NCBI RefSeq assembly: GCF_902705875.1
Contig: NZ_CACSIK010000001.1
Coordinates: forward strand, 1,752,615 to 1,816,614
From: Zhongshania aliphaticivorans
GTDB lineage: Bacteria; Pseudomonadota; Gammaproteobacteria; Pseudomonadales; Spongiibacteraceae
Direction: 5' to 3'
Length of the DNA: 64,000 nt
Shown: in pieces, positions 44,141 to 64,000 of the stretch
Layout of the letters: the number at the start of each line of letters is the position of its first letter
Position numbering within the stretch: position 1 is the stretch's first letter
Program-made: the position numbers and the translations under genes
Notes under the pieces: generated by a model
Database searches by the model: none
What the model saw: the letters and a program-made list of their open reading frames with translations, nothing else
Told to the model about the DNA's origin: nothing

Positions 44141-44262
44141 ATAAACATCCAAATAACTTTACTAAGCTAATTAGCATAGTTATTAACGAAAAGTTGAATT
44201 GCGATTGAGTTACCACGAAAAACATGGTGATACATCAAAATACTAGACGGATTTATCCCGTG

Positions 44263-44640: not shown

Positions 44641-45053
44641 TTTGACGCTAATTCTTTGCGGCCGGTATTATTCTCTAAACCGGTTAAAATAGGGCAGTCT
44701 GCACGATTATCACCATGGCAGCTTGATGCTAACTCCGAGAGTAAATCACGCATAGCGGTGAGTTCATGTATTTTAGCATTTAGCTCCTCAATATGTGTCA
44801 AAGCCAATGCTTTAACATCTGCACTTGCACGGTCTCGGTCACCCCACAATGAGAGTAGCTGCTCAATTTGAGCCAGTGAAAAACCGAGGGATCGTGCACT
44901 TTTTATAAAACAAAGGCTGTGAATATCGTTTTCCGAGAATTGACGATAGCCCGCTTCTGTACGGACGGCCGCTTTGATTAGGCCCAATGACTCGTAGTGA
45001 CGAATCATCTTTACAGATATGCCACTCGCTTTTGCCGCTTCACCAATATTCAT
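44637..45053 (-). CDS. cueR: CueR-type MerR regulator (copper)
   Basis: A 138-residue MerR-family activator of copper efflux. The DNA-binding helix-turn-helix is at the N-terminus (MNIGEAAKASGISVKMIRHYES). The metal site matches E. coli CueR: Cys112 and Cys120 (SCHGDNRADCPIL) and Ser77, which favours Cu(I), Ag(I) or Au(I). I start at the ATG at 45053, with GGAGG just upstream; an ATG 27 bp earlier is less likely. It lies inside the operon downstream of the CopA ATPase, 69 bp from it, so it may be autoregulated. Confidence 0.93.
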   Translation of the reverse strand: MNIGEAAKASGISVKMIRHYESLGLIKAAVRTEAGYRQFSENDIHSLCFIKSARSLGFSLAQIEQLLSLWGDRDRASADVKALALTHIEELNAKIHELTAMRDLLSELASSCHGDNRADCPILTGLENNTGRKELASK

Positions 45054-45122
45054 ATTACCTCCAAATTTATAACAACTCATTCATAGCGACTGTTATTTTC
45101 TGTAGCTAGAACAGCGTAAGCA

Positions 45123-47555
45123 TTATTCTTTGGGCTTCCAGCGTCGTAAAAGTAATGCGTTGCAGATAACACTTACACTGCTCAATGCCATAGCGGCACC
45201 GGCAATAATTGGATTCAAATAACCGAATACTGCTAGTGGAATACCTACAATATTGTAAATAAAAGCCCAAAATAGATTCTGTCGAATTTTATTGAATGTC
45301 CGTTTTGAAATATCGATTGAATTGGCAACAAGCGTAGGATCACCACGCATCAACGTAATGCCTGCAGTATTCATTGCTATATCACTGCCTGATGCCATTG
45401 CAATACTGACGTCTGCGGCAGCAAGAGCTGGTGCATCATTAATACCATCGCCAACCATGGCAATTGTCACATTTTGCCCCCGCAAAGCATTAATTTGTTC
45501 GGTTTTATCCATGGGTAAACTATTGGCGATATAGTGATCAATACCTAAGGCATTGGCTACAGAATAAGCACTACCGTCATTGTCACCGGTGATCATCACA
45601 ATTTCTATACCGGCATTTTTTAGTCTCTGAATGGCATTTCCCGCCGTTTTTTTAATTTCATCATCAAAGGCGAGTAAACCAATTAACCTTGCATTAGGTG
45701 CAGACTCAGCCAGCCAAGACACCGTTTTACCTAACTTTTCTAGGCTGATCGCATTTTGTTCCAGCTCACTAATAGAAATACCACAGTCCTGCATGAGTCG
45801 ACTATTACCGAGCAGTAGCTGACGTTCTTCAACCGTTGCAGATACACCGCGACCTGCTAAATTTTTTGAGTTATGTGCTGATTTAAGTACAATTTCTTGC
45901 TGCCCCGCCTCATTAATAACAGCAGTTGCTAGCGGATGGTTACTCCCCTGCTGCAGGGTAGCTGCCAACTTGAGCAGCGCTTTGTTATTGCCATCACAGG
46001 CAATGTAATCATAAAGGTGTGGTTTACCCGTGGTAAGCGTACCGGTTTTATCAAATACGACCGTGGTGATGCCATGCGCTGCTTCTAAGGCATGAGCATC
46101 TTTTATCAAAATGCCGTGCTTTGCCGCTACACCCGTCCCCGTCATAATAGCAGTAGGGGTGGCTAAACCTAAGGCACAGGGGCAGGCGATTACCATCACG
46201 GCAACAGCATTGATAATTGCACCTTGTAGATCGCCATTGTATAAAAACCAGCTCATCGAGGTGGCAATAGCAATGGTTACAACCAAGGGTACAAAAACCA
46301 TACTGACTTTATCTACTAAACGCTGTATCGGCGCTTTCGCAGCTTGCGCGTTTTCAACCAATCTAATGATTTTGGCAAGCGTGGTTTCGATTCCAACAGC
46401 ACTTGTTTTGATGAGTAAAAGGGCATCGATGTTAATAACGCCACCAACAACCTTATCGCCTATGTGTTTAAGCACAGGCATATTCTCACCGGTAATCATA
46501 GATTCATCTATATATCCTTCACCATCAACAACAATACCGTCCACGGGAATTTTTTCACCCGGTTTAACAACAACAATGTCAGCAATTTTTATATCACTAA
46601 TATCAACGACGCGATCATTATTTTGAATGCGGATTCTTGCGGAATTTGGCCTCAGGGCTTGCAGTGCATGTATTGCCGCGGCGGTCTGATGTTTGGCCCG
46701 CTCCTCTAACCACTTGCCCAATAATACCAAAGTAATTACCAAGGCTGACGTTTCAAAATAATAGTGCACCATCTCGGCATTATGACCAAGGAGCAACTGC
46801 GTAACCAAGTTGTAAACACTTAGGCCATAGCTAGCACTAGTTCCGATGCTAACCAGCAAGTCCATATTCCCCGCTCTAGCTTTAAGTGCCAGCCAGGCCG
46901 AACGATAAAAACGCGCGCCAATATAAAACTGAACTGGCGTTGCCAGCAAAAATTGAAGCCATGGAGGCGGCATAATATCGATACCAAATGCGCTCAATAT
47001 CATGCCAAACAATAGGGGTGCTGATAATAAGGTGGAGGCAATAAGAAGATAGGTTTGCCTGCTTAAAATTTGTGAATTATCACTAGCTCCCGCGGCGGAT
47101 TGGTTATTGGACGTCTTTTCCTCGATAGGTACCGCTTTATAACCAGCAATGCTTATCGCTTCTATCATCGCGGCCATGGGTACAAGATTTTTAACAACAT
47201 GAATATTCGCTAAGCCAGTAGCTAAATTAACATCCGTTTTTAAAACGCCCGAAATAGCGTTTAGTGCATTTTCTATACGTCCCACGCAAGAGCCACAGCT
47301 AATACCGCTAATTGAGAGGGTAATAACTTCTGTCTCCACGGTGTACCCAGAATGTTCCACCGCATCACATAGCGAATTAATATTGACATTCTCATAGTGA
47401 CTAATAAATACCGTATTAGTAGCAAGGTTAACTTGAGCCATACTTACAGCACTCAAGCTATTTAATGATTTTTCTATACGACCAGCACACGAAGCGCAGT
47501 TCATTCCACCTATGTGCAGCGTAATACTGTGGTGAGGTGATGTCTGTGTGGGCAT
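45123..47555 (-). CDS. copA: Copper-translocating P-type ATPase CopA
   Basis: An 810-residue P1B-ATPase that exports Cu(I) to the periplasm. Two N-terminal heavy-metal domains carry GGMNCASCAG and GISCGSCVG. The transmembrane metal site is CPCALGLATP, and the phosphorylation loop DKTGTLTTG, the HP motif SNHPLATAV, TGDND and GDGINDAPAL are present. I place the start at the ATG at 47555, with GGAAG four bases upstream. The CueR-type promoter at about 47591-47621 would put the transcript start near 47584, so a longer frame to 47606 cannot be translated from it. Confidence 0.96.
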   Translation of the reverse strand: MPTQTSPHHSITLHIGGMNCASCAGRIEKSLNSLSAVSMAQVNLATNTVFISHYENVNINSLCDAVEHSGYTVETEVITLSISGISCGSCVGRIENALNAISGVLKTDVNLATGLANIHVVKNLVPMAAMIEAISIAGYKAVPIEEKTSNNQSAAGASDNSQILSRQTYLLIASTLLSAPLLFGMILSAFGIDIMPPPWLQFLLATPVQFYIGARFYRSAWLALKARAGNMDLLVSIGTSASYGLSVYNLVTQLLLGHNAEMVHYYFETSALVITLVLLGKWLEERAKHQTAAAIHALQALRPNSARIRIQNNDRVVDISDIKIADIVVVKPGEKIPVDGIVVDGEGYIDESMITGENMPVLKHIGDKVVGGVINIDALLLIKTSAVGIETTLAKIIRLVENAQAAKAPIQRLVDKVSMVFVPLVVTIAIATSMSWFLYNGDLQGAIINAVAVMVIACPCALGLATPTAIMTGTGVAAKHGILIKDAHALEAAHGITTVVFDKTGTLTTGKPHLYDYIACDGNNKALLKLAATLQQGSNHPLATAVINEAGQQEIVLKSAHNSKNLAGRGVSATVEERQLLLGNSRLMQDCGISISELEQNAISLEKLGKTVSWLAESAPNARLIGLLAFDDEIKKTAGNAIQRLKNAGIEIVMITGDNDGSAYSVANALGIDHYIANSLPMDKTEQINALRGQNVTIAMVGDGINDAPALAAADVSIAMASGSDIAMNTAGITLMRGDPTLVANSIDISKRTFNKIRQNLFWAFIYNIVGIPLAVFGYLNPIIAGAAMALSSVSVICNALLLRRWKPKE

Positions 47556-47590
47556 AAGGCTTCCAAAGCAACCATAGTAATGATGTTTAA

Positions 47591-47621
47591 AGACTAAAGC
47601 CTCCAATCATAGGAAGGTCAA
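47591..47621 (-). promoter_or_regulatory. CueR-type promoter of the CopA ATPase operon
   Basis: On the minus strand the -35 box TTGACC and the -10 box TAGTCT are separated by 19 bp. The spacer contains the dyad CCTTCC...GGAGG. This overlong spacer with an inverted repeat is the hallmark of MerR-family activated promoters and closely resembles the E. coli copA promoter. The cueR gene is in the operon. Confidence 0.85.
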
Positions 47622-47721: not shown

Positions 47722-48621
47722 ATGCTTCACGCTCTTTTGCTTTGCATAACGCTGGTTTCTGCATCGGCATACGCAGTTACCTCTGAACCCACTACGGCGG
47801 AGCCTATAGCCACAGGGCTTAGGTTTAGTATATTAAAAACCGCAGAGGCGGACGTATTGGAAGGTATGACCTATGCCGGTGGGAGTTTTTTTAAGAAAAC
47901 AACCTTAAATCATATAGCGGTAATAATTGAGCACCCGCAGGGTAGTCTCTTGTTTGATACCGGCCTTGGGCGTCAGATAGACACCCAATACCGGTCGGAT
48001 ATGCCTTTTTGGGCAAAACCATTCTTGACGTATAACAATGTAAACCCAGCAATCGATCAGCTTCAGAAAGAGGGCGTAACACCGCCTGAACGAATAATTT
48101 TATCGCACTCACATTGGGATCATGCCAGTGGTGTGGTGGATTTCCCCAATGCAGAAATCTGGCTGCCCCAAGCAGAACAGCAATTTATTGCCAATTCGAC
48201 AGCTCCCGCTGTACTCCATTCACAACTTAGTCCAGACACCATTCAATGGCACCCAATAGAGTTTGACTCAGAAGCCTATGAGAATTTTGATAGTAGTTTG
48301 GACTTATTCGGCGATAAAAGCGCAGTGCTTGTGCCACTACCAGGCCATTCTCCGGGTTCAGTTGGCTTATTTCTGACCACCCGAACTGGAGGGCGCTACT
48401 TTTTTATTGGCGATTTAATTTGGAATGCTAATGCACTTGCCACACAGGCGCCCAAGTTTTGGGCCGCCCGTATGATTGTAGACCATGATGCACAACGTGC
48501 TGCCGAGTCCCTTGCCCAAGTTGTTGGCAGTCAAAGTCAACTGCCGAGACTTGTCATTGTTCCAGCCCATGACCAATCGGTTCACGATAGCCTTGAGTAT
48601 TTCCCGAACTGGGTGAACTAA
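47722..48621 (+). CDS. Secreted metallo-beta-lactamase-fold hydrolase
   Basis: A 299-residue MBL-fold hydrolase with a signal peptide (cleavage near SAYA-VT). Zinc ligands are in HSHWDH (His129, His131, Asp133, His134), PLPGHSPGS and IGDLIW. The fold is seen in lactonases such as AHL lactonases and in other hydrolases, and substrate cannot be fixed from sequence. It is exported, and the same strand carries an alpha/beta hydrolase and a penicillin-acylase-type enzyme, so this could be a group of extracytoplasmic hydrolases for acylated compounds. Confidence 0.82.
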   Translation: MLHALLLCITLVSASAYAVTSEPTTAEPIATGLRFSILKTAEADVLEGMTYAGGSFFKKTTLNHIAVIIEHPQGSLLFDTGLGRQIDTQYRSDMPFWAKPFLTYNNVNPAIDQLQKEGVTPPERIILSHSHWDHASGVVDFPNAEIWLPQAEQQFIANSTAPAVLHSQLSPDTIQWHPIEFDSEAYENFDSSLDLFGDKSAVLVPLPGHSPGSVGLFLTTRTGGRYFFIGDLIWNANALATQAPKFWAARMIVDHDAQRAAESLAQVVGSQSQLPRLVIVPAHDQSVHDSLEYFPNWVN

Positions 48622-48695: not shown

Positions 48696-49706
48696 ATGAA
48701 ATACGCACTGAAAATAGGGTCGTATTTACTGCTACTCATTACGGCATTAATAATACCCGCCCAGAGTATTGCTAATGACGTCATCAAATATGACAAAGAG
48801 TTAAATGGTTTCAGCTACCCCTTCGAGGTTGAGACACTAACATTCAATTCGCAGAATCAAGTTTTAAATATGCGCTATATGGATGTTGGGCACGAAAATG
48901 CCGATAAAGTTATCGTGTTATTACACGGTAAAAACTTCGCTGGGTTCTACTGGAAAACCTTGGCGCTTGATCTGATCAAACAAAACTATCGCGTTATTAT
49001 TCCCGACCAAATCGGATTTGGAAAATCCTCTAAGCCAAGCTCATACCAATATAGTTTTAGCCAGCTTGCATTAAACACTAAGCGTTTATTAGAGCATTTA
49101 AATATTTCTAATGCGGATATTGTAGGGCATTCAATGGGTGGTATGCTCGCCGTCACTTTTGCCGCTAATTACAGTAACATTGTCAATAAACTTATTTTAA
49201 TAAACCCGATAGGCCTTGAAGATTACAGCGAGTATGTCGAGTTTAAAGACACCAATTTCTTTTACCAAAGAGAGTTAGCAACAACCTTAGACAAAGCAAT
49301 TAACTATCAAAAGAGTAATTACTATGATGGCAAATGGTCTAGCAAGTATGAGGAATTATTAATCCCATTAAAGGGCATGCTCGCCGGTGATGATTGGAAT
49401 ATTGTTGCCTGGAATAACGCCTTAACCTATGGCCCCATTTTTTCTGAAAACATTGTTGGTCGGTTTTCTCAAATAAAAAGTCCAACCTTTCTCATTATTG
49501 GTACGCGAGATAAAACAGGACCAGGCCGAGCATGGCTAAAGAAAGGGGTGGAAAGATCACTTGGTAATTACGAACAACTGGGTAAAAATGCTCGAAACCT
49601 AATAAAAGGTGCCAAACTTATTGAATTAGAGGGCCTTGGACACATGCCACATTTTGAAGATTACGACGTATTTATGAAGGCTTTCCAACAAGGGATAGAC
49701 AAATAA
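48696..49706 (+). CDS. Secreted alpha/beta hydrolase
   Basis: A 336-residue alpha/beta-hydrolase with an N-terminal signal peptide (cleavage near QSIA-ND). The nucleophile elbow is GHSMGGM, the acid is in IGTRDKTGPG, and the catalytic His in LGHMPHFED. The oxyanion region LLHGKNFAGFYW matches the family. The ATG at 48696 has GAGG upstream. It follows the MBL-fold gene by 74 bp on the same strand. Esterase or epoxide-hydrolase-like activity is possible; the substrate is not known. Confidence 0.85.
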   Translation: MKYALKIGSYLLLLITALIIPAQSIANDVIKYDKELNGFSYPFEVETLTFNSQNQVLNMRYMDVGHENADKVIVLLHGKNFAGFYWKTLALDLIKQNYRVIIPDQIGFGKSSKPSSYQYSFSQLALNTKRLLEHLNISNADIVGHSMGGMLAVTFAANYSNIVNKLILINPIGLEDYSEYVEFKDTNFFYQRELATTLDKAINYQKSNYYDGKWSSKYEELLIPLKGMLAGDDWNIVAWNNALTYGPIFSENIVGRFSQIKSPTFLIIGTRDKTGPGRAWLKKGVERSLGNYEQLGKNARNLIKGAKLIELEGLGHMPHFEDYDVFMKAFQQGIDK

Positions 49707-49820: not shown

Positions 49821-52085
49821 ATGCCTCGGATCACTGCTGTACCAGGTATTATTGCGTTACTGGGGCGAATCATCGTTGGTCATATACTTACGCCTCGTAA
49901 CAGTTTCTCAGTTCAACAGCGAATTGATGCGCTGCCATTGCGGGACGCCCCCTTAAAAGCTGAAATCACCATAAACTGGAACGACAATTTAATTCCATTT
50001 ATTCAAGCTAATAATGAAAAAGACCTTGCAGTGGGATTAGGCATTAGCCATGCACATCTAAGATTAGGCCAGATCGAATTTCTTAAATACGTTAGTCAAG
50101 GCCGTGTATCTGAACTATTAGGTCCTATAGCTAATGATATTGATCACACCTTGCGGGTGCTTGATCTTGGCAAGGTGAGTAAAGAAAATTTCTCCGCAAT
50201 GCCAGAGCAAACGCAACAATGGATGGAAGCTTACACAGCGGGAATCAACTATGTTATTGCCAATATGGCAGATGATAAATCACTGTGGCCAGCCGAATTC
50301 CAAATACTCAATGTTTGTCCTACACCGTGGTCAGTTGAAGACATCATGACACTGGCACGGTTAAATTGTGCTGATTTTACCTGGGGCTTATGGCCCAAGC
50401 TTTTACCTTTGCGCAAGCGCAATGATTGGCTGACATTATGGCGGCACCTAATGAAATTCGGCGGTGGGCCACCACCACTAACAACTAATGAGAAGATCAC
50501 TGAGAACGACCCACTAGAATGGTTAAGTGGTCTTTTTGGTAAGCCGGGTGGTTCCAATGCGGTAGCCATAAACAGTGCTAAATCCTCACATGGCCACGCT
50601 TTACTCAGTGGCGACCCGCATCTTCCTATGGTGTTGCCCAATTTCTGGATACTGGGCGGCTTACATTGCCCTACATTAAAAACGGTTGGGTATATGTTGC
50701 CTGGTTTACCGGCTGTTATGGTTGGCCGTAGCCCTGAAATTGCTTGGGGCGGTACGTCTATGCACGCAGCATCTAGCGATCTCTTTGATGTTTCTACTCA
50801 AGCACCAGAAAACTTTAAACGCCGGACGGAAATCATTAAAACTCGGTGGGGTAAAAACAAAACCGTGGTTTTGCATGATTCGGAATTCGGTCCGCTCTTA
50901 ACTGACGCGCCGATGTTTAGCAATAATGATTCACAAGCAGCTTCACCTGCACTTGCATTCAGATGGGTAGGGCATCAAGTCAGTGATGAAATAACAGCCA
51001 TGCTTGGTGTGGCAAGATCTCATAATTTTAGCGACTTTCAATTAGCATTAAAGGACTTTGCCGTTGCAGGGCAGAATATGGTTTATGCTGATAAAGCAGG
51101 TAACATTGCCCAAGTTATGGCGGCACGATTACCCAGCCGCCCAATAGAGCGTCCTATTGATGTTGTTCTTAATATTGAAGAGCACGCATCTTGGTCACAG
51201 ATGCTTGATACTCAGAACTTACCTACGCGATACAATCCAGCAGAGGGCTTTGTTGCGTCTGCAAATAATAAACCCGAGGAAGCTGGAGAAGTATTAATAA
51301 GCTGCTTTTTCTCACCCAATGATAGGGTAGAGCGCTTAAAAACACGCTTAAGTGAAGCCCCATCTGTAGATGAGAGTTTTCTTAAAGCTCTGATGACCGA
51401 TGTTCAAAGCGATACCGGAATAAAGCTGCGAGACAAGCTATTACCATTAATAGAGGAAAAAGATAGCGTCACCTATCAAACCTTATCCGGGTGGGATGGT
51501 AAGTATACAATTGAAAGTGCTGGCGCCTTGGTATTTGAAGTATTGCTTTATCATTTTGCCCTAGCTTTGCATGGCAAAAACGATATCGACGTTTTAACCG
51601 TAAACTGGGATCCTCGAAGCTTGCTCATGGCAGACTTACAATACGTTCCAGCCACACGATTAACGCTGGCTCTTTCCGCAGCACTACCCAAATGTGATTC
51701 AGCATTAAACAAGTATCAATGCTGGGGTAATATGCATCGATTACGGATACAACACCCCTTGGCGGCGCTACCCATTATTGGCAAACGCTGGCGTTTTAGT
51801 GAAACTGCCATTGCCGGTGCAAATGAAACCTTAATGAAATCTGCCCATGGTTTCGCAATTAAAAAACATTATGTTGGTATGAGTTCAACCGCACGGTACT
51901 TTTTTGATCTAGGAGATCAAGATGCAAATTGGTTTGCCATGCTTGGTGGGCAAGATGGTGCGCTTGGGTCAGCCGCCTATACTGATCAAATAGAGATTTG
52001 GAATAACAATGAGATGATTCAAATTCCCTTGGATGTAAGCGAAGTGAAAAGCAGCTATCAATACTCCACCATTATTTCACCCTAG
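49821..52085 (+). CDS. Penicillin-acylase-family Ntn-hydrolase
   Basis: A 754-residue protein of the penicillin amidase/acylase family, which matures by self-cleavage into alpha and beta chains and hydrolyses amides of acyl chains. The nucleophile is Ser245 in KPGGSNAVAI, with downstream ALLSGDPHLP and the HASSDLFDV region matching the family. The N-terminus is hydrophobic and may act as a signal anchor. Relatives include acyl-homoserine-lactone acylases (PvdQ, QuiP types), but family membership alone does not prove that substrate. AGGA precedes the ATG. Confidence 0.88.
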   Translation: MPRITAVPGIIALLGRIIVGHILTPRNSFSVQQRIDALPLRDAPLKAEITINWNDNLIPFIQANNEKDLAVGLGISHAHLRLGQIEFLKYVSQGRVSELLGPIANDIDHTLRVLDLGKVSKENFSAMPEQTQQWMEAYTAGINYVIANMADDKSLWPAEFQILNVCPTPWSVEDIMTLARLNCADFTWGLWPKLLPLRKRNDWLTLWRHLMKFGGGPPPLTTNEKITENDPLEWLSGLFGKPGGSNAVAINSAKSSHGHALLSGDPHLPMVLPNFWILGGLHCPTLKTVGYMLPGLPAVMVGRSPEIAWGGTSMHAASSDLFDVSTQAPENFKRRTEIIKTRWGKNKTVVLHDSEFGPLLTDAPMFSNNDSQAASPALAFRWVGHQVSDEITAMLGVARSHNFSDFQLALKDFAVAGQNMVYADKAGNIAQVMAARLPSRPIERPIDVVLNIEEHASWSQMLDTQNLPTRYNPAEGFVASANNKPEEAGEVLISCFFSPNDRVERLKTRLSEAPSVDESFLKALMTDVQSDTGIKLRDKLLPLIEEKDSVTYQTLSGWDGKYTIESAGALVFEVLLYHFALALHGKNDIDVLTVNWDPRSLLMADLQYVPATRLTLALSAALPKCDSALNKYQCWGNMHRLRIQHPLAALPIIGKRWRFSETAIAGANETLMKSAHGFAIKKHYVGMSSTARYFFDLGDQDANWFAMLGGQDGALGSAAYTDQIEIWNNNEMIQIPLDVSEVKSSYQYSTIISP

Positions 52086-52906: not shown

Positions 52907-53674
52907 TTAACTCGGACCAACCCAGCTAAGCACCGTCTGCGCTGATAGCTGCCAATGGACCGTTATAATGTGACCTTTTAAAAATTGTGGCGAAAGATCA
53001 CGCAGCAAGCGAAGGCTAAGCGCATTATGATTTATATCGATAGCGCAAACATCAACATCTAAAAAATCAAAATACCTGGCAACCGCTGGGTAGAGCACTT
53101 TAAATACAGACTCTTTGGCCGAAAAGATAACGGTTAATGCCAATGCTTCCTTGTCAAAATTAAGCGCGACTAAATCTAATTCAGCTGGGCGAGCAATACT
53201 TGCCGATAGTGAATGTACATCTGCAGCATCAATAATAGATTCAGCGTCAATACCAATTCCCGCACTGCCATAGGCTGCTGCAGGTCGGTGCATTAACAAA
53301 CAATAGGCGCTGCCTTTATGGTGACTTATTGATCCAAACACCGTGTTAGGCCAGACAGGACTGCGGTGATTTCCAACAGGGACGGGTGCTTTGGGTAAGC
53401 CCAAGGCGTGAAATGCATGCTGGGCGGTTATTCGCCCAGCCAAAAAATCCGCTTTACGAACGTCAGTTGCTCTTTGTAATAAGGGTGGAAAATCAATGTT
53501 ATAAGCGTCAAAAAGTGAATCACTATATTGCTTGGTATCAAAATCACAGTGACTACAAATACCGTCAAATTGCGGAAGGTGAATTAAAGAACTCTTCGCA
53601 ATAAAACCAGACTCATACTGCAATAGGGCAGACACTTTTCTGGCTCTATGCTGCTGCAGTTGAGGGCGAATCAT
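52907..53674 (-). CDS. 4'-Phosphopantetheinyl transferase (EntD/Sfp-type)
   Basis: A 255-residue PPTase that adds the phosphopantetheine arm to the carrier-protein serine, turning apo-PCP into holo-PCP. Motifs for Mg-CoA binding and catalysis are present: GSISHHKG, GIGIDAESI and VIFSAKESVFKVLYP. The N-terminal HLPQFDGIC and R-x-F-L-A-G-R segments are EntD-like. Its start lies inside the glycosyltransferase gene (29-bp overlap), so it is translationally coupled to it. In this operon the expected client is the PCP of the adjacent NRPS. Confidence 0.92.
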   Translation of the reverse strand: MIRPQLQQHRARKVSALLQYESGFIAKSSLIHLPQFDGICSHCDFDTKQYSDSLFDAYNIDFPPLLQRATDVRKADFLAGRITAQHAFHALGLPKAPVPVGNHRSPVWPNTVFGSISHHKGSAYCLLMHRPAAAYGSAGIGIDAESIIDAADVHSLSASIARPAELDLVALNFDKEALALTVIFSAKESVFKVLYPAVARYFDFLDVDVCAIDINHNALSLRLLRDLSPQFLKGHIITVHWQLSAQTVLSWVGPS

Positions 53675-54935
53675 GTTTGAGTAGACCCCATTGCTCTAAC
53701 AGGGAAATCGCCGTATCCACGCCATTTTCTTCAGCCACTTTTTGTGCAAGTTTATCGGCATTGATACGCATGCTTTCTTGGCTTGCATCTTCAATGGCTT
53801 TGGCTAATTGAGGTGCTGTTAATTCCGCTCGTTTTAACATTTTTGGTGCTACACCATTTTTTTGAAGACGCCATGCCCAAAAAGGTTGATCGCCAAAGAA
53901 GGGGACAACCACAGATGGAATTCCCGCTTTAATAGTGGCAGCCGTTGTTCCTGCGCCGCCGTGATGAACTGCTAAAGCAACTCTTGGGAATAACCAGTCA
54001 TGTGGCGCGGCATCAATAACTAAAACATTTGGATTGTTGTTTGCCTGTGATGTCAGCCCACCCCAACCGGTAGCGATGATAGCGCGGCGACCAGAGAGTG
54101 CTAGCGCATCGTAAATTATGGCACTTAAATTGTCTGTATCATCACTCAGCATACTGCCAAAACCGATATAGATAGGCTTCTCACCGTTAGCAAGAAATTG
54201 AACTAACTCATCGGAAGGACACCATTGTGATTCCCCTTCTAAATACCAATTCCCACAAACTTGTACACCAATAGGCCAAGTCAATGAAGGCGGTAATAAA
54301 GCAGGGCTATACCCGTACAGAATACGACGGTCTTGTTTTTTTTGTCGGTAATAAGGTCCATACCAAGGCAATGTGCTTAGTTTTAATTCAGACCTTACTG
54401 GACTGTAGGCAGCACTCAACATGCGCCAAGTCACTGCTCTTAATAGGTGATAGAGCATTTCATTGATAAAACCATTTCTAGGCTTTTCAGGCGGGGTTAA
54501 CATCATGGGCGGTATATCAGGGCAGGGCGTCACCGGTTGTAAATGTGTTTCTACAGCGGGAATATTGAGCGCTTCGCCCAAAGAGTTCGCTAAAACAGCC
54601 ATCATGCCATTGCCTAATAAAAGGTCTGCGCCCTCTGCAGCTGCTAGACCTTCTGTCGCCCAATGTTGAGACATGTCTTTAAGGTGGCGACGCGCCGTTG
54701 TCATTAACGCCAATGGATTAAGACCACGTTGAATAGCTCGCGGGTCCTTTGCCATGACTTCAAGAAAGTCGGCGGTGAGAGGCGCATAGCTAAGCCCCTG
54801 ACTTTTAACTAATGTCTCGCATGTTTTACCGCTAGCAATACAAACCTTATGGCCCTTCGCTTGTAAACCAAGCCCTAAGGCGATAAATGGACGAACATCA
54901 CCCTGGGTGCCAATACTAAAAATAGTAATATTCAT
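53646..54935 (-). CDS. GT1-family glycosyltransferase (UGT/MGT-like)
   Basis: A 429-residue GT-B glycosyltransferase of family GT1. The N-terminal FSIGTQGDVRPFIALGLGL is typical of the acceptor domain. The C-terminal nucleotide-sugar site has PHDWLFPRVALAVHHGGAGTTAATIKAGIPSVVVPFFGDQPFWAWRL, the signature of sterol and lipid or macrolide UDP-glycosyltransferases. It is 50 bp downstream of the NRPS gene and overlaps the PPTase. Together they suggest glycosylation of an NRPS-made lipid-like product. The exact sugar and acceptor are inferred. Confidence 0.9.
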   Translation of the reverse strand: MNITIFSIGTQGDVRPFIALGLGLQAKGHKVCIASGKTCETLVKSQGLSYAPLTADFLEVMAKDPRAIQRGLNPLALMTTARRHLKDMSQHWATEGLAAAEGADLLLGNGMMAVLANSLGEALNIPAVETHLQPVTPCPDIPPMMLTPPEKPRNGFINEMLYHLLRAVTWRMLSAAYSPVRSELKLSTLPWYGPYYRQKKQDRRILYGYSPALLPPSLTWPIGVQVCGNWYLEGESQWCPSDELVQFLANGEKPIYIGFGSMLSDDTDNLSAIIYDALALSGRRAIIATGWGGLTSQANNNPNVLVIDAAPHDWLFPRVALAVHHGGAGTTAATIKAGIPSVVVPFFGDQPFWAWRLQKNGVAPKMLKRAELTAPQLAKAIEDASQESMRINADKLAQKVAEENGVDTAISLLEQWGLLKHDSPSTAAA

Positions 54936-54985
54936 TTAAGCCTGTATTCACTCGTTGAGCAGACAATCTTGTTTAAGACGCTTTT

Positions 54986-57900
54986 TTAACCTTTTAGAGA
55001 CTCAGCAATTAAAGGACCAATAAGCTCCAATGGTTCAGCATCAAACATTTGTTGATGATGGCAACTAACCTGATGCACCGTTAACTCTCCTACATGGTTT
55101 TGCCAAACTTTGGCATTGTTATGTAGTAAATCACCTAGCTCTGTTTCAGCCGTTTGCGATGCGCCAATGAACAACATGTCTGCATTGACTTTACCCGGCG
55201 TAAAGCTGCGTGAAATAGCTAGGTTGTTCTCAATTATTTGCCGAACGCCCTCAATAATATTGCTGTTACTTTCCTGCATTTCCTTAACAAAAGGCAAGTT
55301 GTAAATATCGTATTCACGACACAGAAGTTCAGTGAGATCTTTCATTGTTTCTGAACCGACAGGGAGTGCATCACTCGGAAGTCCCATAAATAATAGGGCG
55401 CTTTTAACTAAGTGGCTTTCTTCATCACAATTCTGATCTTTTTGAACATAGGGGTAGGCATCTAAAATAGCGAGATAATTAATCGTTTCGCCATCTGCCT
55501 CTAGCCTTCTTGTGATTTCATGGGCCAACAATCCACCCATAGACCAGCCCAGCAAATGATATGGCCCTGCAGGTTGTACTCGCCGAATGTGGTCAATATA
55601 TTCTTTCGCCATTTCACCAATACTTTGCGGTAAAACAGTGGCGCTAGTCTCTAAGAACTCTGTGGCAAGCCCACGAGCTTGTATTCCATATAGGTTCTGA
55701 TCACTACTTAAATGGCGAGCCAAACCTGAGTAAGCCCAACTTAAACCGATAACAGGGTGAATACAAAAAAGTGGGGCAGATGTGCCTGTAGACTTTAATG
55801 GTAATATCATACCGAGAGGGTCAACAGCTTCTTGCTTTTCAATTTGCTCACTAAGTTCTGCAATGGTACTTGCTTCAAAAACTGCAGCTAGAGGTATATC
55901 GCGCTTCAATAATTCTCTCAACTTGGCAACCATTCTTGCTGCTGTAAGAGAATCACCACCCAAGTCAAAAAAGCTATCGTTAATGCCGACTTGCTCAACT
56001 TCAAATACTTCACACCACAATGCAGCTAACTGAGTTTCTAACGGCGTTCTTGGCGCCACATACGCGTGGGCATTCTGCCATATTGGCTCGGGGAGCGCTT
56101 TGCGATCTAACTTACCATTAACATTCGTCGGGAATTCACTCACATAAATAAACATGGAGGGAATCATATAATCAGGCAAGGTTTGTTCTAGATGTTTTTT
56201 AAGTAGTGCGGTATCAATTGCCTGTAACTCGCCATTTTCTAGTGCTAAAGGTAATACATAAGCAACCAATTTATTATTGCCGCAAGGAGCTGCCTGCAAA
56301 GTGACTACCGCTTGTCTTACACCATCACAGCGTTGAATATTTGCTTCTACCTCTTCGGCTTCAACCCGAAAGCCGCGTATTTTGATTTGAAAATCATTAC
56401 GGCCTAAGTATTCAAGTACGCCGTCATTACGCCAGCGAGCAAGATCACCCGTTTTATAAAGTCTTCCCTTACCAAATGGATTAGCTACAAAACGCTCCGC
56501 CGTGAGTTCAGGTCTATGTAAATACCCTTTTGCAACACCTTCACCACCAATATATAACTCACCAATAGCAGAAAGAGGGACTGGCTGCATTGCTTTATCA
56601 AGCACATAAACTGTCGTATTTTGAATAGGGCGACCGATTGGTGGTGAATCTAAATCATCGCCCTCTAAGCGCATGATGGTGGACCAGATAGTTGTTTCAG
56701 TTGGGCCATATAAATTGACAATAGGGTGGCCAAGTTTTCTCATTTTACGAGCCAATTGCGCAGGCAAAGCTTCGCCACCCACCAAGGGCCTAACATTGCG
56801 TAAGGCTTCATCCTCATCTGCGAGCAAGGCTTGCCAATGTGATGGTGTTGCTTGCATAACGCTTACATTTTGGTCTTGAATAAGCTTAACCAGCGCAGCA
56901 GGATCTTTCGCTACAACTCTGTCAGCGATAACCACTCGTGCCCCCAATATCAATGGAAGGTATAACTCTAGTACGGCAATGTCGAAAGCAACTGTTGTCA
57001 GGGCAAGTAATGTATCGTCGGTACTAATCTGTAATTCGGCCTGCATCGCCAATAAAAAATTGAGTAAACCTGAGTGGCTAATTTCTACGCCTTTAGGACG
57101 CCCCGTAGAGCCGGATGTGTAAATAACATAGGCGCTACTATCTCCTGTGACACAGTTAGAAACTGGCAAGGTATCTTTAACTTCTGGAAAAGTGATGGTA
57201 TCTAAATTAATTACATGATTACTGTCTGAAAATTGAGTATTGCTAATACTAGATGTGGACAAGGTAAGAGTAGGTTTACCCTCCTCAATAATCATTGCTA
57301 AACGTTCAGCGGGAGCGCAGGGATCTAGGGGTAAATATGCGGCGCCTGACTTCATAATTGCCAATAACGCTGCTGGCATAGACTCATCTCGGGGTAACGC
57401 TACAGCAACAATATCACCAGTGCCAATATTACGATCAATCAACAACTGAGTTATTTGATCAACTTGATATTGTAGAGCCTGATAACTGATAGCTTTATCG
57501 CCGCTAGTGACCGCAATCGCATCAGGTGTACGCGCTGCTTGTTCAGTAAATAGTAGAGGTAGGGATGTATTAGGTAGAGGTACCGCAGTGTTATTCCAAT
57601 CTACCAATAGCTGCTGCTTCTCAAGATCAGAAAGCAGGTTAATTTGACTGATTGGCGTCACAGGATCAGCCACAACTGCATTAATTAAGCGAACAAAACG
57701 ATCACGATGGGTATCCAAGTCTGGCTGAGTATAAAGCGCTGGGTTGGCATCAAAATCGACTCTCAGGCCGTCATGCTCACCTCGGTCATAAATAAAAACC
57801 GTTAAGTCTTCGACAGTGCCATTAGAAATGTTGTGGGCAAGACATTGATGACCGCCAAATCGTAAATCATAATCAAAAGGCTCAATATTTACGCCAACCC

Positions 57901-59059
57901 AAGATATTTGCTGGCCTTGACCAAGCAAGCCCAGTTCGCGACGAATATCTTCGTAGCGGAACTGTTGATGACGAAGAGACTGACGCACTGTTTTAGATAC
58001 TTGTGTGGCTAAACCGGCCAAATTTAATTGATCTGTCATTGCAAGGCGGATAGAAACAGCATTCGCCATCATCGACGGCGTGCTACGCATATCTCTGTTT
58101 GCGCGTGCGGTTACCGGCATACCAAACACCAAATCATCAGCGCCTGTCATACGATAAATATAAGCTGCAAATAAGCTAATTAATACTTGGGGTACGCTAG
58201 CTCCAACATCCTTACTCAGGATACGAAGCTCAGCACTTGCAGCAGTAGAAAGCCGTGCCGTACTTCTGCGCAAGCCACCGGCGCGTACCGCATTATGTCG
58301 TGTTAGCGAAACGGGGTCAGGTAAAGACTTTAATTGCTCTAGCCAATAAGCACGATCACGTTCATAACGAGGCGAGCTTTTATAGTGCGCTTCTTGCTGA
58401 TGTTGCGCATTTAAAGATAAAAAGGGATTGGGTCCTGCATCACGATTATCAACTAAGGCGTTATATATTTCGGCACAGCGCTTAGAAAGAATGCCAGCAC
58501 CAAAACCATCTAACACAACATGATGACTACGCTGATACCAAAAATAGCAGTTTTCATTAATTTTGAACAAGGCGCAAAACCACAGCGGGTCACAAGCGAG
58601 GTCGAGCGGTTGGCTAAGATCGTCCATCATCCATGCCTCAGCATCAGCACGGGGATCTTTAGCAGCACTCATATCAACAAAGGGAAATTCACCCTTATAT
58701 TTATCGAGTATTATCTGCTGAGGGCCATCTTCTGTATCATGAATTTCAACACGCGTTGTTTCAGCTTCTTGAGTGATTTGTTTTAGAGCGGCAATGAAAT
58801 TGCCTACATCAATATCGCCAAGAATTTCACAGTATTCCGCAATATTATAGACAGCATCTTTTGGGCCAATTTTTTCCCCAAACCATAAGCCACGCTGGGC
58901 CTGAGCTAAGGGTAAGAACTTTGTTTCCGGCGAAACCAGCGTACGCTGACTTGAACGCTCAATCTTTAATTCTTTAAATGCTTGCACAGATTGAGCCGCT
59001 TTATCAGCGGGATGAGCTAGTGCCGTAAGGCCCGATTTTGCGGCAATGCTTTCAGTCAT
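54986..59059 (-). CDS. One-module NRPS, C-A(Gly)-PCP-TE
   Basis: A 1357-residue EntF-like NRPS starting at the ATG at 59059; the TTG at 59113 would add 18 unrelated residues. The C domain spans about 45-475, with an intact catalytic HHVVLDG (His179, His180, Asp184). The A domain spans about 505-985; A3 is YTSGSTGRPKG, and the ten specificity residues read DILQLGLIWK, which I recognise as the glycine code. The PCP has LGGDSLTA (Ser1037), and the thioesterase has GWSMGG (Ser1173), Asp1200 and His1334/1335. It leads the operon NRPS-GT-PPTase. The expected product is an N-acyl-glycine type compound, released by the TE and glycosylated by the next gene. The upstream donor is not in the window. Not a siderophore synthetase by code (EntF uses Ser). 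Confidence 0.93.
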   Translation of the reverse strand: MTESIAAKSGLTALAHPADKAAQSVQAFKELKIERSSQRTLVSPETKFLPLAQAQRGLWFGEKIGPKDAVYNIAEYCEILGDIDVGNFIAALKQITQEAETTRVEIHDTEDGPQQIILDKYKGEFPFVDMSAAKDPRADAEAWMMDDLSQPLDLACDPLWFCALFKINENCYFWYQRSHHVVLDGFGAGILSKRCAEIYNALVDNRDAGPNPFLSLNAQHQQEAHYKSSPRYERDRAYWLEQLKSLPDPVSLTRHNAVRAGGLRRSTARLSTAASAELRILSKDVGASVPQVLISLFAAYIYRMTGADDLVFGMPVTARANRDMRSTPSMMANAVSIRLAMTDQLNLAGLATQVSKTVRQSLRHQQFRYEDIRRELGLLGQGQQISWVGVNIEPFDYDLRFGGHQCLAHNISNGTVEDLTVFIYDRGEHDGLRVDFDANPALYTQPDLDTHRDRFVRLINAVVADPVTPISQINLLSDLEKQQLLVDWNNTAVPLPNTSLPLLFTEQAARTPDAIAVTSGDKAISYQALQYQVDQITQLLIDRNIGTGDIVAVALPRDESMPAALLAIMKSGAAYLPLDPCAPAERLAMIIEEGKPTLTLSTSSISNTQFSDSNHVINLDTITFPEVKDTLPVSNCVTGDSSAYVIYTSGSTGRPKGVEISHSGLLNFLLAMQAELQISTDDTLLALTTVAFDIAVLELYLPLILGARVVIADRVVAKDPAALVKLIQDQNVSVMQATPSHWQALLADEDEALRNVRPLVGGEALPAQLARKMRKLGHPIVNLYGPTETTIWSTIMRLEGDDLDSPPIGRPIQNTTVYVLDKAMQPVPLSAIGELYIGGEGVAKGYLHRPELTAERFVANPFGKGRLYKTGDLARWRNDGVLEYLGRNDFQIKIRGFRVEAEEVEANIQRCDGVRQAVVTLQAAPCGNNKLVAYVLPLALENGELQAIDTALLKKHLEQTLPDYMIPSMFIYVSEFPTNVNGKLDRKALPEPIWQNAHAYVAPRTPLETQLAALWCEVFEVEQVGINDSFFDLGGDSLTAARMVAKLRELLKRDIPLAAVFEASTIAELSEQIEKQEAVDPLGMILPLKSTGTSAPLFCIHPVIGLSWAYSGLARHLSSDQNLYGIQARGLATEFLETSATVLPQSIGEMAKEYIDHIRRVQPAGPYHLLGWSMGGLLAHEITRRLEADGETINYLAILDAYPYVQKDQNCDEESHLVKSALLFMGLPSDALPVGSETMKDLTELLCREYDIYNLPFVKEMQESNSNIIEGVRQIIENNLAISRSFTPGKVNADMLFIGASQTAETELGDLLHNNAKVWQNHVGELTVHQVSCHHQQMFDAEPLELIGPLIAESLKG

Positions 59060-59582: not shown

Positions 59583-60584
59583 TTATTTCAACGCGTGTTT
59601 TACGAGATTATTTAACTTGTCACTGTAATTACGCAAAACAGGGTTCACATTTTTTCTTTGTTTTACTTCAATGGAATCTAATTGACCTATAAGGGGTAAA
59701 TCTAAAAGGCCTTCGAGGGAACGTATAGACTGAGCAGGGTCAGAAATAAGCGATTCGTAATCAATTTCAATTGCACGATCAGGCGGCATCGTTGACACCT
59801 CTTTTTTATAAACAGCCACTTGTCTCGCGACCTCTTTCGCCAATAAACCACGCGCTAAGCGCGCGCACATCTGGCGTCCAAGCACTTTGCGAAATGCTTT
59901 AAGACACACCCACACAGCATAGCCCTTACGATAGGAACGTCGACCATTGCCATCATCAAGTAAGATTTCCAAATAATCTTGTGGCCCCTCTAAATAAGAC
60001 AATAAGGCATTCAACATACTATTTAGAACAGAAATAGGTTCACGCGATATATAAATAAAACGCGCATCGGGGTAAAAGCTCAATATTTCCTCAGCATTGC
60101 CGGTATCCCAAGGATTTTTTAATAAAACCGCTTGTTTACCAGGGTTTACTGCTAATAATTTTCTACATATTGTCGAAAATAACGGCACATTATCAGCATT
60201 TAATTTAAAAGAACCTGATTTTTTCCTAAGCAGAAAACCATATTCTTCTACGGCATCAGCATCTACATGTGTCCCATCAATATTGCGATCTTTAACACCA
60301 AGAGCAGTAAAGTAGCTATTAAGTCGCTCCTTATCGCTTATGTCCGCGCCACTTTCCTCATTGTTAAGTAAGCGATCAAAATATAAAAGGTGGTACAGAC
60401 TTAAATGAGCAACTGGAAAGCACTTAGCAACACAATCGTATAAGAAAGTCGTTCCCGAACGGTGCAAGCCCATAATAAATACCGGACGAAGAGGGAAGTG
60501 CTTAATACTTTCCAATTTATCGGCATCTTCATTACACGTCGGAAAATTCGGGTCTATCATTGCATTCATGGTGTAATTCAGCAT
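59583..60584 (-). CDS. Sulfotransferase-family protein
   Basis: A 333-residue sulfotransferase-fold protein with the PAPS-binding P-loop-like FIMGLHRSGTTFLYD and the 3'-phosphate motif ISREPISVLNSML. Such enzymes move sulfate from PAPS to carbohydrate, lipid or steroid hydroxyls. It is upstream of the NRPS operon on the same strand, 523 bp away, so it may have its own promoter. The start is uncertain: ATGs at 60584, 60569 and 60560 all lack a clear ribosome site. Whether it sulfates the NRPS product is a guess. Confidence 0.85.
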   Translation of the reverse strand: MLNYTMNAMIDPNFPTCNEDADKLESIKHFPLRPVFIMGLHRSGTTFLYDCVAKCFPVAHLSLYHLLYFDRLLNNEESGADISDKERLNSYFTALGVKDRNIDGTHVDADAVEEYGFLLRKKSGSFKLNADNVPLFSTICRKLLAVNPGKQAVLLKNPWDTGNAEEILSFYPDARFIYISREPISVLNSMLNALLSYLEGPQDYLEILLDDGNGRRSYRKGYAVWVCLKAFRKVLGRQMCARLARGLLAKEVARQVAVYKKEVSTMPPDRAIEIDYESLISDPAQSIRSLEGLLDLPLIGQLDSIEVKQRKNVNPVLRNYSDKLNNLVKHALK

Positions 60585-60884: not shown

Positions 60885-61934
60885 TCAAACGTTTCTATCC
60901 TTACCGCTAGAAGCACGCTTTTTATCATCAGTCTGTACATACACTGTATCAGTCGTAGACATACTCGCATGGCCAAGGTCTTCAGAAACATCTTTAAGTG
61001 CACGACCTCGTTCAATCTCTAAACTCGCACCGGTATGCCGAAGCCAATGTGAGGTTGCTTCTTTAAAATTGCTGGCATTGTCTTCACCGTAACGCAATTT
61101 CATCTGTTCGTAGGCTTGATCAAACACCTCTTGAACTAGCCGAGAAAGTTGCCTTGCCGTCATCCCGCCACGACCGCGAATTTTTTCGATAATAGGGTGG
61201 TTTTCACCAGTAACTGGCAGCTTATTTAGCCCGCGGTGGAGCCGATATCGGGTTAAGTAGCTTAGAAAACTAGCTGGTACCGTGATGTCTCGAACTTTTC
61301 GGCCTTTTCCATAGATTTTAAGCCACCAATTATTGTCATTATCCCTCCAGAAATGGCTCATTATAGGAGACCATTCTTTGCGATCTGAGTACTCGGATAT
61401 ACGCAAAAACAAGGTTTTTAGGGATGCGATAAGAAATAAGCTTCGTTCGTACCTAGAATCGTCATCAGCCATGGAAGTTGCGACGTCCAAGAGGAAGTTC
61501 CATTGGTCTTCAGTTAGCCGTTTTACATCTTTTACCTGGGTATCCTTAATGAAATATCGGCAGTCTTTTTTTGCTATTTGCACGGGGTTCCCATAGCAGT
61601 ATTCTTCATCGGTAAGATGCTTATAGAAGGCATTTATGGCGGTAAAGGTAGATTGTAAAGTTTCTTGTGATGGACGATATTTTTTCTTGTCAGGTTTTGA
61701 CTCGTCACCTTTGGCGACCATTAATTTGAAAGGAGTCCATTCGGTATTACTGGTGTAAAAACCACCTTTGATTATAAATTTGTCCACATTGGAATAACTG
61801 ATCCACGTTAATGGCGGCTTCCAACAAAAGTCGGCAAACTCAAGAATGTCAGCTTTTCGGTATTCATCAAGAGGTTTGTCTTTAATAAGAAACGCCCAAA
61901 GCAGAAATTTTTCAACTTCAGACCGGAATCGCAA
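60885..61934 (-). CDS. Tyrosine recombinase (integrase), N-terminus probably frameshifted
   Basis: A tyrosine site-specific recombinase. From the TTG at 61934 it has 349 residues, and the catalytic set is Arg178, Lys210, His297 and Arg300 (SHWLRHTG), His322 (DLGHASM) and Tyr332. It follows the Tn3-type transposase on the same strand, 32 bp after its stop if the frame at 62041 is used, so it may be the element's resolution enzyme, as with TnpI in Tn4430. The start at 61934 is only the first available codon: the preceding sequence in the same frame reads VAYIGRNKSEHTY, continuing the protein, and then hits a stop. A different frame upstream supplies a plausible N-terminus. Confidence 0.85.
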   Translation of the reverse strand: MRFRSEVEKFLLWAFLIKDKPLDEYRKADILEFADFCWKPPLTWISYSNVDKFIIKGGFYTSNTEWTPFKLMVAKGDESKPDKKKYRPSQETLQSTFTAINAFYKHLTDEEYCYGNPVQIAKKDCRYFIKDTQVKDVKRLTEDQWNFLLDVATSMADDDSRYERSLFLIASLKTLFLRISEYSDRKEWSPIMSHFWRDNDNNWWLKIYGKGRKVRDITVPASFLSYLTRYRLHRGLNKLPVTGENHPIIEKIRGRGGMTARQLSRLVQEVFDQAYEQMKLRYGEDNASNFKEATSHWLRHTGASLEIERGRALKDVSEDLGHASMSTTDTVYVQTDDKKRASSGKDRNV

Positions 61935-62041
61935 GTACGTGTGCTCTGATTTGTTCCGACCAATATAGGCAACTTAACAATATCGACCAAAATGTTGCGT
62001 GTTAATGAGGTCCGGCCGGCAAAAGTGTTGGATTTAGCCAC
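61935..62041 (-). pseudogene. N-terminal part of the tyrosine recombinase in a shifted frame
   Basis: From a GTG at 62041 the frame reads MAKSNTFAGRTSLTRNILVD and on to IVKLP. It then leaves the frame of the recombinase body near 61966-61978. In the body frame, VAYIGRNKSEHTYLRFRSEVE continues from just after a stop. Together they look like one N-terminus split by a single-base insertion or deletion (or an assembly error). Confidence 0.55.
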
Positions 62042-62073
62042 TTCGATCGTAAATCACTGATTATATTGAATAT

Positions 62074-64000
62074 TTAGTCAGGTTGAAGTTTGTAGCCAAT
62101 TGGCACCACTGCTTTAGTCAGATCAAGCTCAAAGCTCCCCAGTCTTCCAAGGTGCGCTGTATGATACGGTGAGAACTTGGCCATATGCTCACGTTTAATA
62201 TCATAGCCTTCTTCTCGTAATTCATTAAAAGCTTTGGTCATGGCATTGACGTTATACAGGATAGCGACGTTGGCAAGCAGATGATTGTATTTTACGATCT
62301 TGTTTTGCTCATGCTTTAAATTGGCAGCGATTTTCCCGCCATTTGCAAAGAATAACCATCTCGCAAACTCATTAAACTCCTCACTCTTACATGTTGCTGC
62401 TTGGATTGTTTTACGTAAGTCGACATCGGTAATGTACTCCAATAAAAACATTGTACGAACCACCCTTCCAAGTTCTCGGAAGGCAAAATACAGCTTGTTT
62501 TTACGGTTCTTGGTGCCGAAGCGTCGCAATATGGTTGATGCCGTGATTTTTCCAGCCTTCACCGACATAGCTGTTCGGAGCATATCTGGGTAATGCTTCT
62601 CGATACGATCCCATCGTATTGGCTCATGAAATAACGACTGTATATGCTGGAGAACCATTTCCCTGTCTGGCTTGTAAAATGTTAGATCCTTAATATTTCT
62701 AATGCGGGGCATCAACTTGATTCCAAGCAGATACGCCAGTGCAAATACGGGTGTGGATTGAGCTTGGGTATCGCCATGTACTGTATCGGGTTTAAAATCG
62801 GATTCGTCGTTAAGGAGTCCATCCAAGATATAGATCGCTTCATACACGCCACAGGGTATAAAGTGGCTAAACAAGGCAATATAGGTATCTGATACGTGAT
62901 AGTAAGCAATACCGCCGAAACTACCGTATCTCAGGTGATATTCTGATAATAAATTATCTTCATAAAGATCCCATAGTTTACCATCGGCTGAAACACTATT
63001 ACCCGAACCCCAGCACTCAATAAGACCAAATTTTTTGTACGCGTTATTCACTTTAACGATGGCTTTATCCAGCCTTTCTGGTGTCGTTCGTTTAAGATTG
63101 AGCCATGCAACTTGCTTACGGCTAATTCCTCGAACTGATCGTTCGGTTTCAGTCGGCCCAATGTTGGTGCCATAACAAAACAGAGAAAGGACAAATCGCA
63201 ATAACGGGTCATCGATACGCGATTCAAATCCAGACAGTGGCCCGAATAGTTCATTTAAAGAAAGCCATTTTTCTACGTTAATAATGACCTCAAGTAGATT
63301 GATTTTTTCAAGCCGTTCCGCGAGTAGCGGTGCAATCGCTTCAACTTCTGCTGAGGATTCGTTAGATTTTGGCTTGCCGATAATTAACTTGCCTTGTTCT
63401 ATTCGGACGTATTCGTCATCTGGGAACACACTATCAGCCAAGACGCAGGCTTCTTTCATTTGCACCTTCAAGGCTTCGGTGAAAGCCGTGTCACCGGCGA
63501 CCAACCCCAGCTCACTACAATAACCAGGCAATTCTTCTTCATACTGTTCCCACGAAATCATTTGTTCGCGGTAGTCGTCGAAGGTTTCACTGTGAGGAAT
63601 AAACAAGTCGCCCGTACTCAACTCTTCTGCAATACGATCAAATACACACAGTTCAAAATTGTGTTTGTTGACGTGTGTAACGTGAGCTGTTTTTGATGCC
63701 TTACCCGTAACCAGCTTCCACCACTTGTCCCGCACCCATCGAATATTAATAATATTTTTGCTATCTGGGTCTTCAGGGTTTTCTTTTATTTGGAGTAGTT
63801 CCGTTCGTCGATTTTTACACTCTCGGATAAATTCAAACGCCTTCAAAACGTCTTTGTCTTCAGTGGCTGATTCTAAGTTCAGTATTTCTATGGCTCGAAA
63901 TAATGCCGACCGCTGTTTCTTGTAGAGCGGTACCATGAAGGGTAAGTAATTGTTTCCCGCGTAGGCCATGTATTGATCGCACATCTCCAGTATTGTCTTC
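62074..64000 (-). CDS. tnpA: Tn3-family transposase, C-terminal part (cut by window edge)
   Basis: The C-terminal ~641 residues of a Tn3-family TnpA; full proteins are about 1000 residues, and the frame is open to the right edge. The C-terminal half carries DDE-type acidic residues: Asp in SADGKLWDLYED, Asp in VHGDTQAQS (the GDT-type motif) and Glu in LKHEQNKIVKYNHLLANV, all in the Tn3 order. The LLGIKLMPRIRNIKDLTFY segment is also typical. The element is a replicative transposon that forms cointegrates. The tyrosine recombinase follows downstream. Confidence 0.9.
   Translation of the reverse strand, partial: KTILEMCDQYMAYAGNNYLPFMVPLYKKQRSALFRAIEILNLESATEDKDVLKAFEFIRECKNRRTELLQIKENPEDPDSKNIINIRWVRDKWWKLVTGKASKTAHVTHVNKHNFELCVFDRIAEELSTGDLFIPHSETFDDYREQMISWEQYEEELPGYCSELGLVAGDTAFTEALKVQMKEACVLADSVFPDDEYVRIEQGKLIIGKPKSNESSAEVEAIAPLLAERLEKINLLEVIINVEKWLSLNELFGPLSGFESRIDDPLLRFVLSLFCYGTNIGPTETERSVRGISRKQVAWLNLKRTTPERLDKAIVKVNNAYKKFGLIECWGSGNSVSADGKLWDLYEDNLLSEYHLRYGSFGGIAYYHVSDTYIALFSHFIPCGVYEAIYILDGLLNDESDFKPDTVHGDTQAQSTPVFALAYLLGIKLMPRIRNIKDLTFYKPDREMVLQHIQSLFHEPIRWDRIEKHYPDMLRTAMSVKAGKITASTILRRFGTKNRKNKLYFAFRELGRVVRTMFLLEYITDVDLRKTIQAATCKSEEFNEFARWLFFANGGKIAANLKHEQNKIVKYNHLLANVAILYNVNAMTKAFNELREEGYDIKREHMAKFSPYHTAHLGRLGSFELDLTKAVVPIGYKLQPD

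Follow-up and report, generated by a model that had tools for sequence, protein, structure and literature searches.

A candidate four-gene locus for a glycosylated, possibly sulfated acyl-glycine lipid in Zhongshania aliphaticivorans

Gene content and domain structure of the locus

The DNA analyzed here (the window) is a stretch of 64,000 nucleotides from Zhongshania aliphaticivorans (NCBI RefSeq assembly GCF_902705875.1, contig NZ_CACSIK010000001.1, positions 1,752,615 to 1,816,614 of the forward strand), and its subject is a locus built around a single-module nonribosomal peptide synthetase (NRPS). An original prediction, made from the sequence alone, had placed the NRPS, a glycosyltransferase (GT), and a phosphopantetheinyl transferase (PPTase) in one coupled cluster for a glycine-containing glycolipid biosurfactant. 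All three open reading frames (ORFs) were found at the positions given for them; a fourth conserved gene, encoding a predicted sulfotransferase (SULT) at 59583-60584, had been overlooked. The locus genes, all on the minus strand, and the domains of the NRPS are as follows, in window numbering.

59583..60584, minus strand: predicted sulfotransferase, SULT (Pfam Sulfotransfer_3; fold dependent on 3'-phosphoadenosine 5'-phosphosulfate, PAPS)
54986..59059, minus strand: single-module NRPS with condensation (C), adenylation (A), peptidyl carrier protein (PCP), and thioesterase (TE) domains, C-A-PCP-TE (Pfam domains, motifs); ATG at 59059
57605..58921, minus strand: C domain, apparently fatty-acyl starter-like, HHVVLDG intact (nearest solved C domains)
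56111..57550, minus strand: A domain, code DILQLGLIWK, presumably glycine (code residues, LgrA similarity)
55844..56032, minus strand: PCP domain, LGGDSL phosphopantetheine site (Pfam, motif)
55043..55774, minus strand: thioesterase domain, GWSMGG nucleophile (Pfam, motif)
53646..54935, minus strand: GT1-type glycosyltransferase, closest to the UDP-Glc:sterol glucosyltransferase Ugt51
52907..53674, minus strand: Sfp/EntD-type PPTase (Pfam 4PPT_N and ACPS; 84 bits to the solved EntD 7bcz)

The NRPS ORF as listed opens at a TTG at 59113, and the ATG at 59059 was taken as its start. The NRPS and GT genes are separated by 50 bp and the GT and PPTase genes overlap by 29 bp, and SULT, which has the same orientation, lies upstream of the NRPS at 523 bp from the ATG and 469 bp from the TTG-opened ORF. 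Across the loci compared below, with each ORF counted from its first start codon, spacing ranged from -142 to +94 bp between NRPS and GT (16 loci) and from -91 to +51 bp between GT and PPTase (13 loci), so these three genes have the tight layout of a transcription unit. A promoter scan returned 11 candidates, with 18.8 expected, and a terminator scan 9, with 7.9 expected.

Matches above the Pfam cut-offs were obtained in the NRPS for Condensation, AMP-binding, PP-binding, and Thioesterase, and the HHxxxDG motif, the PCP serine, and the TE serine are intact. The Condensation match is the only one in the genome, which is without a match to MbtH. The ten code positions of the A domain were read as DILQLGLIWK, a code that presumably specifies glycine. 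Among solved A domains, the closest was the second one of LgrA (573 bits), followed by 5u89 (493 bits), both presumably glycine modules. The architecture first proposed for the NRPS is thus borne out, and the code agrees with the glycine specificity proposed for it. The code was compared in 132 aligned rows, of which 112 are proteins shorter than 1500 aa (query included) and 20 represent loci. Excessive length led to the exclusion of 9 of the 120 listed matches, one locus row (L072) represents a wrong ORF, and two rows (P0001 and P0004) are one protein. DILQLGLIWK was present in 70 rows and DILQLGLVWK in 24 (together 94/132). Departing codes include DVLQLALVYK (3 rows) and DILWLGLVLK (7 rows), and Lysobacter and Dyella are among the names of the rows concerned.

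A search with only the C domain gave the starter C domain (Cs) of RzmA as the closest match (300 bits), followed by C1 of the CDA synthetase (207), ObiF1 (180), and EntF (166). According to the available text of PMC7804268, 7C1H and related entries represent the starter domain of RzmA, for which a structure with octanoyl-CoA was determined as well, and C1 of CdaPS1 is likewise treated as a starter domain. By similarity, rather than by a C-domain tree, the C domain thus appears nearest to fatty-acyl starter domains. In the locus of the window, no carrier-protein gene was seen to precede the C domain, and the acyl donor is therefore likely a group bound to coenzyme A (CoA) or to an acyl carrier protein (ACP).

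The GT falls into the UDPGT/EryCIII-like families of Pfam. Its nearest solved relative is Ugt51 (301 bits), which agrees with the lipid-type GT1 enzyme originally proposed, and solved chains named rhamnosyltransferase scored 27-42 bits. In the rhamnolipid system RhlA/RhlB a 3-hydroxy-fatty acyl acceptor is likewise glycosylated, but that system has no NRPS or amino acid, and the window GT is far closer to Ugt51 than to the rhamnosyltransferases.

The AlphaFold2 model of SULT has a pLDDT of 93. Its nearest folds are the mycobacterial Stf9 and Stf1, at 16% identity, from which a substrate is not transferable, and the fold-match rows shown consist of sulfotransferases and a relative that binds 3'-phosphoadenosine 5'-phosphate, retinol dehydratase. 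When the query was aligned with 33 of the 120 listed matches (34 sequences in all), the positions G39, H41-T46, R181, and S189 proved invariant. The loop GLHRSGTTF is what we take to be the 5'-phosphosulfate loop, and R181 and S189 presumably bind the 3'-phosphate. Judged from the model and these residues, SULT has the fold and cofactor motifs expected of a sulfotransferase, and sulfation of a glycolipid is predicted. An adenosine 5'-phosphosulfate kinase, which makes PAPS, is encoded in the genome; this is weak support for sulfation because 11/14 control genomes carry one too.

Conservation in relatives and comparison with published loci

The three-gene order was found again in relatives. In a sample of 21 loci with the NRPS, window included, GT adjoins the NRPS in 17, and among these 17 NRPS-GT loci SULT adjoins the NRPS in 16 and PPTase stands beside GT in 13. 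An adjacent PPTase is missing in L068, L071, and L077 (a Gynuella-type locus), GT and SULT are both missing from the vicinity in L075 and L076, and L078 and L079 are EntF-like loci with serine (Ser) codes. One genome, G375, carries two NRPS-GT copies (L064 and L065), only one of which has SULT and PPTase beside it, and the pair offers a natural test of the role of SULT.

Of 18 genus genomes, counting the one that contains the window, 15 have NRPS, GT, and SULT together and the other three (G369, G370, and G378) lack all of them. Among 20 other relatives GT had no match, SULT had one (G404, 45% identity), and weaker NRPS matches were found in five (29-42% identity). In a sample of 390 genomes of the order, SULT was detected in 19 at 1e-40, 15 of them with the NRPS-GT pair.

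A tree of 131 NRPS sequences, built using FastTree and rooted on two EntF-like loci, placed the window NRPS within Zhongshania, beside Spongiibacter and Microbulbifer, with Zavarzinia, Xanthomonadales, Rhizobiaceae, and a Gynuella-Marinomonas group further out; by this placement the SULT-bearing Gynuella-type locus groups apart from the other SULT-bearing loci. A protein labeled 'unclassified Alcanivorax' (P0014, 71% identity) falls among the Zhongshania sequences of the tree and thus looks misassigned, and it was discarded as evidence on A. borkumensis. A further family, by eye a cation-efflux protein, lies downstream of PPTase in 7/21 loci, with other ORFs intervening in two of the 7; it is absent beside the window's PPTase and was rejected as a part of the cluster.

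The available text of Royer et al. 2013 (PMC3849588) describes, for Xanthomonas and A. borkumensis, NRPSs of a single C-A-PCP-TE module whose genes overlap with a GT gene, and the window cluster agrees with this short NRPS-GT(-PPTase) type in architecture, GT, PPTase, Gly code, and starter-type C domain. The A. borkumensis set, compared by its published description, likewise consists of a one-module NRPS (ABO_1784), a GT (ABO_1783), and a contiguous PPTase (ABO_1782), with a function that is called unknown there; the available portions mention no sulfotransferase, whereas the Zhongshania/Spongiibacter NRPS has one beside it. The Xanthomonas pairs XALc_0364/0365 and XALc_1145/1144 share the NRPS architecture and the overlapping GT, and according to the same portions both C domains are of the starter type and XALc_0364 has a Gly signature, with a predicted product of glycine, a beta-hydroxy-carboxylic acid, and a glycosyl residue. 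The Xanthomonas system differs in having two loci, one with a non-Gly signature described as unknown, and neither a contiguous PPTase nor a sulfotransferase is mentioned for it in those portions. The pathway had been put forward as possibly undescribed in this lineage; its architecture and the predicted product type, from the Xanthomonas member, are already in print (PMC3849588), and what the window adds is the lineage and the sulfotransferase. The open-access literature searched yielded no report that deals with the Zhongshania cluster or with a sulfated product of this kind.

The glycine-glucolipid biosurfactant of A. borkumensis was reported in 1992, and on the basis of mass spectrometry data the authors of a later study speculate that glycine and a 3-hydroxy acid are joined first and glucose is added last, as given in the available text (PMC10684412). 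In the accessible parts of a 2023 paper (PMC10710537), the route is called not completely elucidated, ABO_1783 and ABO_2215 are named as candidates, after the genome paper, and the similarity of ABO_1783 to RhlB is cited. ABO_1784-1783-1782 is likely the glycine-glucolipid locus, and is taken as such here. By name, ABO_1782-1784 did not appear among the matches listed (the best 120 of 530 and the best 120 of 6916, most without a name). G272, G554, and G631, which belong to one family, were considered as carriers of the A. borkumensis cluster and rejected; their proteins have Ser codes and HHxxxDA, with no GT match near.

Predicted product and alternatives

Because the gene content and order match the ABO set, the code reads as glycine, the C domain is starter-like, and the GT resembles Ugt51, the best-supported pathway is one similar to the route that yields glycine-glucolipid in A. 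borkumensis, and the conserved SULT beside the NRPS points to a modified product. With moderate confidence, we therefore favor the view that the four genes serve to make an N-(3-hydroxyacyl)glycine lipid that bears a sugar and probably a sulfate, as a variant form of the glycine-glucolipid of Alcanivorax. The acyl-glycine glycolipid of the original prediction is thus kept in a form that is probably modified; that interpretation was broadly right, with a core that is less novel and a locus one gene richer than claimed. The chance is about even that Zhongshania and Spongiibacter, together with marine relatives, produce a glycine-glycolipid that carries sulfate, as a doubly anionic surfactant or surface lipid of a kind not known from Alcanivorax.

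The proposed steps are each deduced from protein family and residues. PPTase would prime the PCP, and the A domain would load glycine onto it; the starter-like C domain would then transfer a (3-hydroxy)fatty acyl group, supplied by CoA or ACP, to the glycine, and the TE would release the N-acyl-glycine as the free acid. GT could then glycosylate the 3-hydroxyl of the acyl chain with a hexose that is most likely glucose, and SULT may use PAPS to sulfate a hydroxyl on either the sugar or the acyl chain, which would yield a doubly anionic relative of the Alcanivorax lipid. The substrates, the order of steps, and the site of sulfation are thus putative, as would be any particular chain length or further ester-linked 3-hydroxy acids. 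The compact gene set, kept in several marine genera, offers a clear genetic test of the glycine-glucolipid route in many strains; SULT predicts a new product that can be checked by mass (+79.957 per sulfate), and the predicted class of sulfated lipid, if true, might find use as a marine surfactant.

Several observations weigh against this assignment. A gene that would link several 3-hydroxy acids to one another is lacking in the locus. For SULT there is no match to an NCBIfam family, and its best sequence match to a solved structure has an E value of 0.02. The distance between SULT and NRPS is 193-656 bp over the loci, and in the Gynuella-type locus SULT is divergent, so a shared transcript is not required and another substrate is possible. 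The NRPS-GT copy L064 has neither SULT nor PPTase nearby. In the order sample, SULT occurs at 40-45% identity in 4 genomes of another family, which have no NRPS match at 1e-230 (G404 has five weaker ones), and in 3 of the 4 no NRPS-sized ORF lies near SULT in the 11-20 kb covered. The distance correlations (NRPS-SULT 0.937 over 16 loci, reached by 0/2000 permutations; NRPS-GT 0.948 over 16; NRPS-PPTase 0.902 over 13) and the co-occurrence counts speak for the assignment, but both include the effect of shared ancestry, and the correlations were obtained with no unrelated gene as control.

The spacing and orientation of SULT and the copy that lacks it would also fit an unsulfated glycine-glucolipid as in A. 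borkumensis, with the neighboring SULT serving some other pathway, and the three-gene core does match the published Alcanivorax set. This explanation is nevertheless unlikely, given that SULT stands beside the NRPS in all but one of the NRPS-GT loci and that the presence of NRPS, GT, and SULT is identical in every one of the 18 genus genomes searched.

A short N-acyl-glycine glycoside with a signaling, antibiotic, or membrane-lipid role, and not a biosurfactant, is considered improbable. The sequence evidence does not bear on surfactant function, and a cell-surface or surfactant role would be conjectural for any of these products. Related one-module NRPSs are found in Dyella, Lysobacter, Rhizobiaceae, and Zavarzinia among the matches listed, groups that are not known as oil degraders, and some relatives have changed codes such as those given above, which could indicate another acyl-amino acid. 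Against this, A. borkumensis, with the same gene set, has a cell-bound glycine-glucolipid, though in the literature available the link between genes and product is unproven.

An EntF-like siderophore synthetase, suggested by whole-protein NCBIfam matches to EntF (722 bits, with a cut-off of 2400) and MxcG (768 bits, with a cut-off of 2300) and by a Gly-code homolog in two Marinomonas-type genomes that lies beside a by-eye iron ABC importer with no GT adjoining, is set aside for the window locus as very improbable, since the code is Gly and not Ser, the C domain is nearer to fatty-acyl starters than to EntF, and none of 33 matches to 2,3-dihydroxybenzoate-AMP ligase in the genome is above the cut-off (best 200.5 of 723.55 bits). 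Other EntF-like proteins have the Ser codes DVWHFSLVDK or DVWHMSLVDK, some beside EntB-like genes. A crude Fur-box scan of 11 intergenic regions of the clusters produced nothing distinct, with a best score of 13/19 (L072; 23/200 shuffles), and the region upstream of the ABC genes in the Marinomonas-type locus L076 gave 14/19 (10/200 shuffles); the EntF-type regions chosen as positive controls were not outstanding either, so the scan carries no weight for or against a siderophore.

The two Marinomonas-type loci (L075, 8788-17755, and L076, 3216-12166) have a Gly-code one-module NRPS next to the by-eye iron-type ABC importer and a cupredoxin-like ORF. GT is not next to the NRPS in either; in G505 a GT lies elsewhere, and in G713 there is none at 1e-20. 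These loci possibly represent a different use of the same NRPS, and their position beside an iron-type transport operon makes other products possible. Three Ser-code EntF-like genes (L097, 9709-14570; L098, 9636-14572; L099, 6871-11819) have HHxxxDA for HHxxxDG in the C domain and are each overlapped by an ORF of roughly 310 aa; those of L097 and L098 resemble, by eye, the ORF after the EntF-like gene of L078. At L100 (9777-14583), a Gly-code protein of C-A-PCP-TE size follows two very large ORFs, and the short ORF after it is, by eye, a different sulfotransferase-like protein.

Surroundings in the window

The AlkB gene that had been noted in the same window is a real AlkB-type alkane 1-monooxygenase gene (5202-6368, minus strand; 541 bits to the solved 8f6t), divergent from a gene for a TetR-type regulator (6568-7170). 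It lies about 47 kb from the cluster, so the linkage means little, and it was not used as evidence. Closer to the cluster, a gene for a penicillin-amidase family N-acyl amide hydrolase with a weak match to PvdQ (49821-52085, plus strand) is accompanied by genes for a metallo-hydrolase resembling N-acyl-homoserine lactone lactonases (47722-48621) and an alpha/beta hydrolase (48696-49706); in L002 and L062 as well, the amidase gene is present downstream of the cluster. Upstream of SULT, 60885-63984 (minus strand) contains a tyrosine recombinase and a Tn3-family transposase match, and L060, L062, and L063 have a related integrase close to the cluster. A copper-resistance set, consisting of CopB, a multicopper oxidase, a MerR-type regulator, and a heavy-metal P-type ATPase, occupies 41571-47606 on the minus strand.

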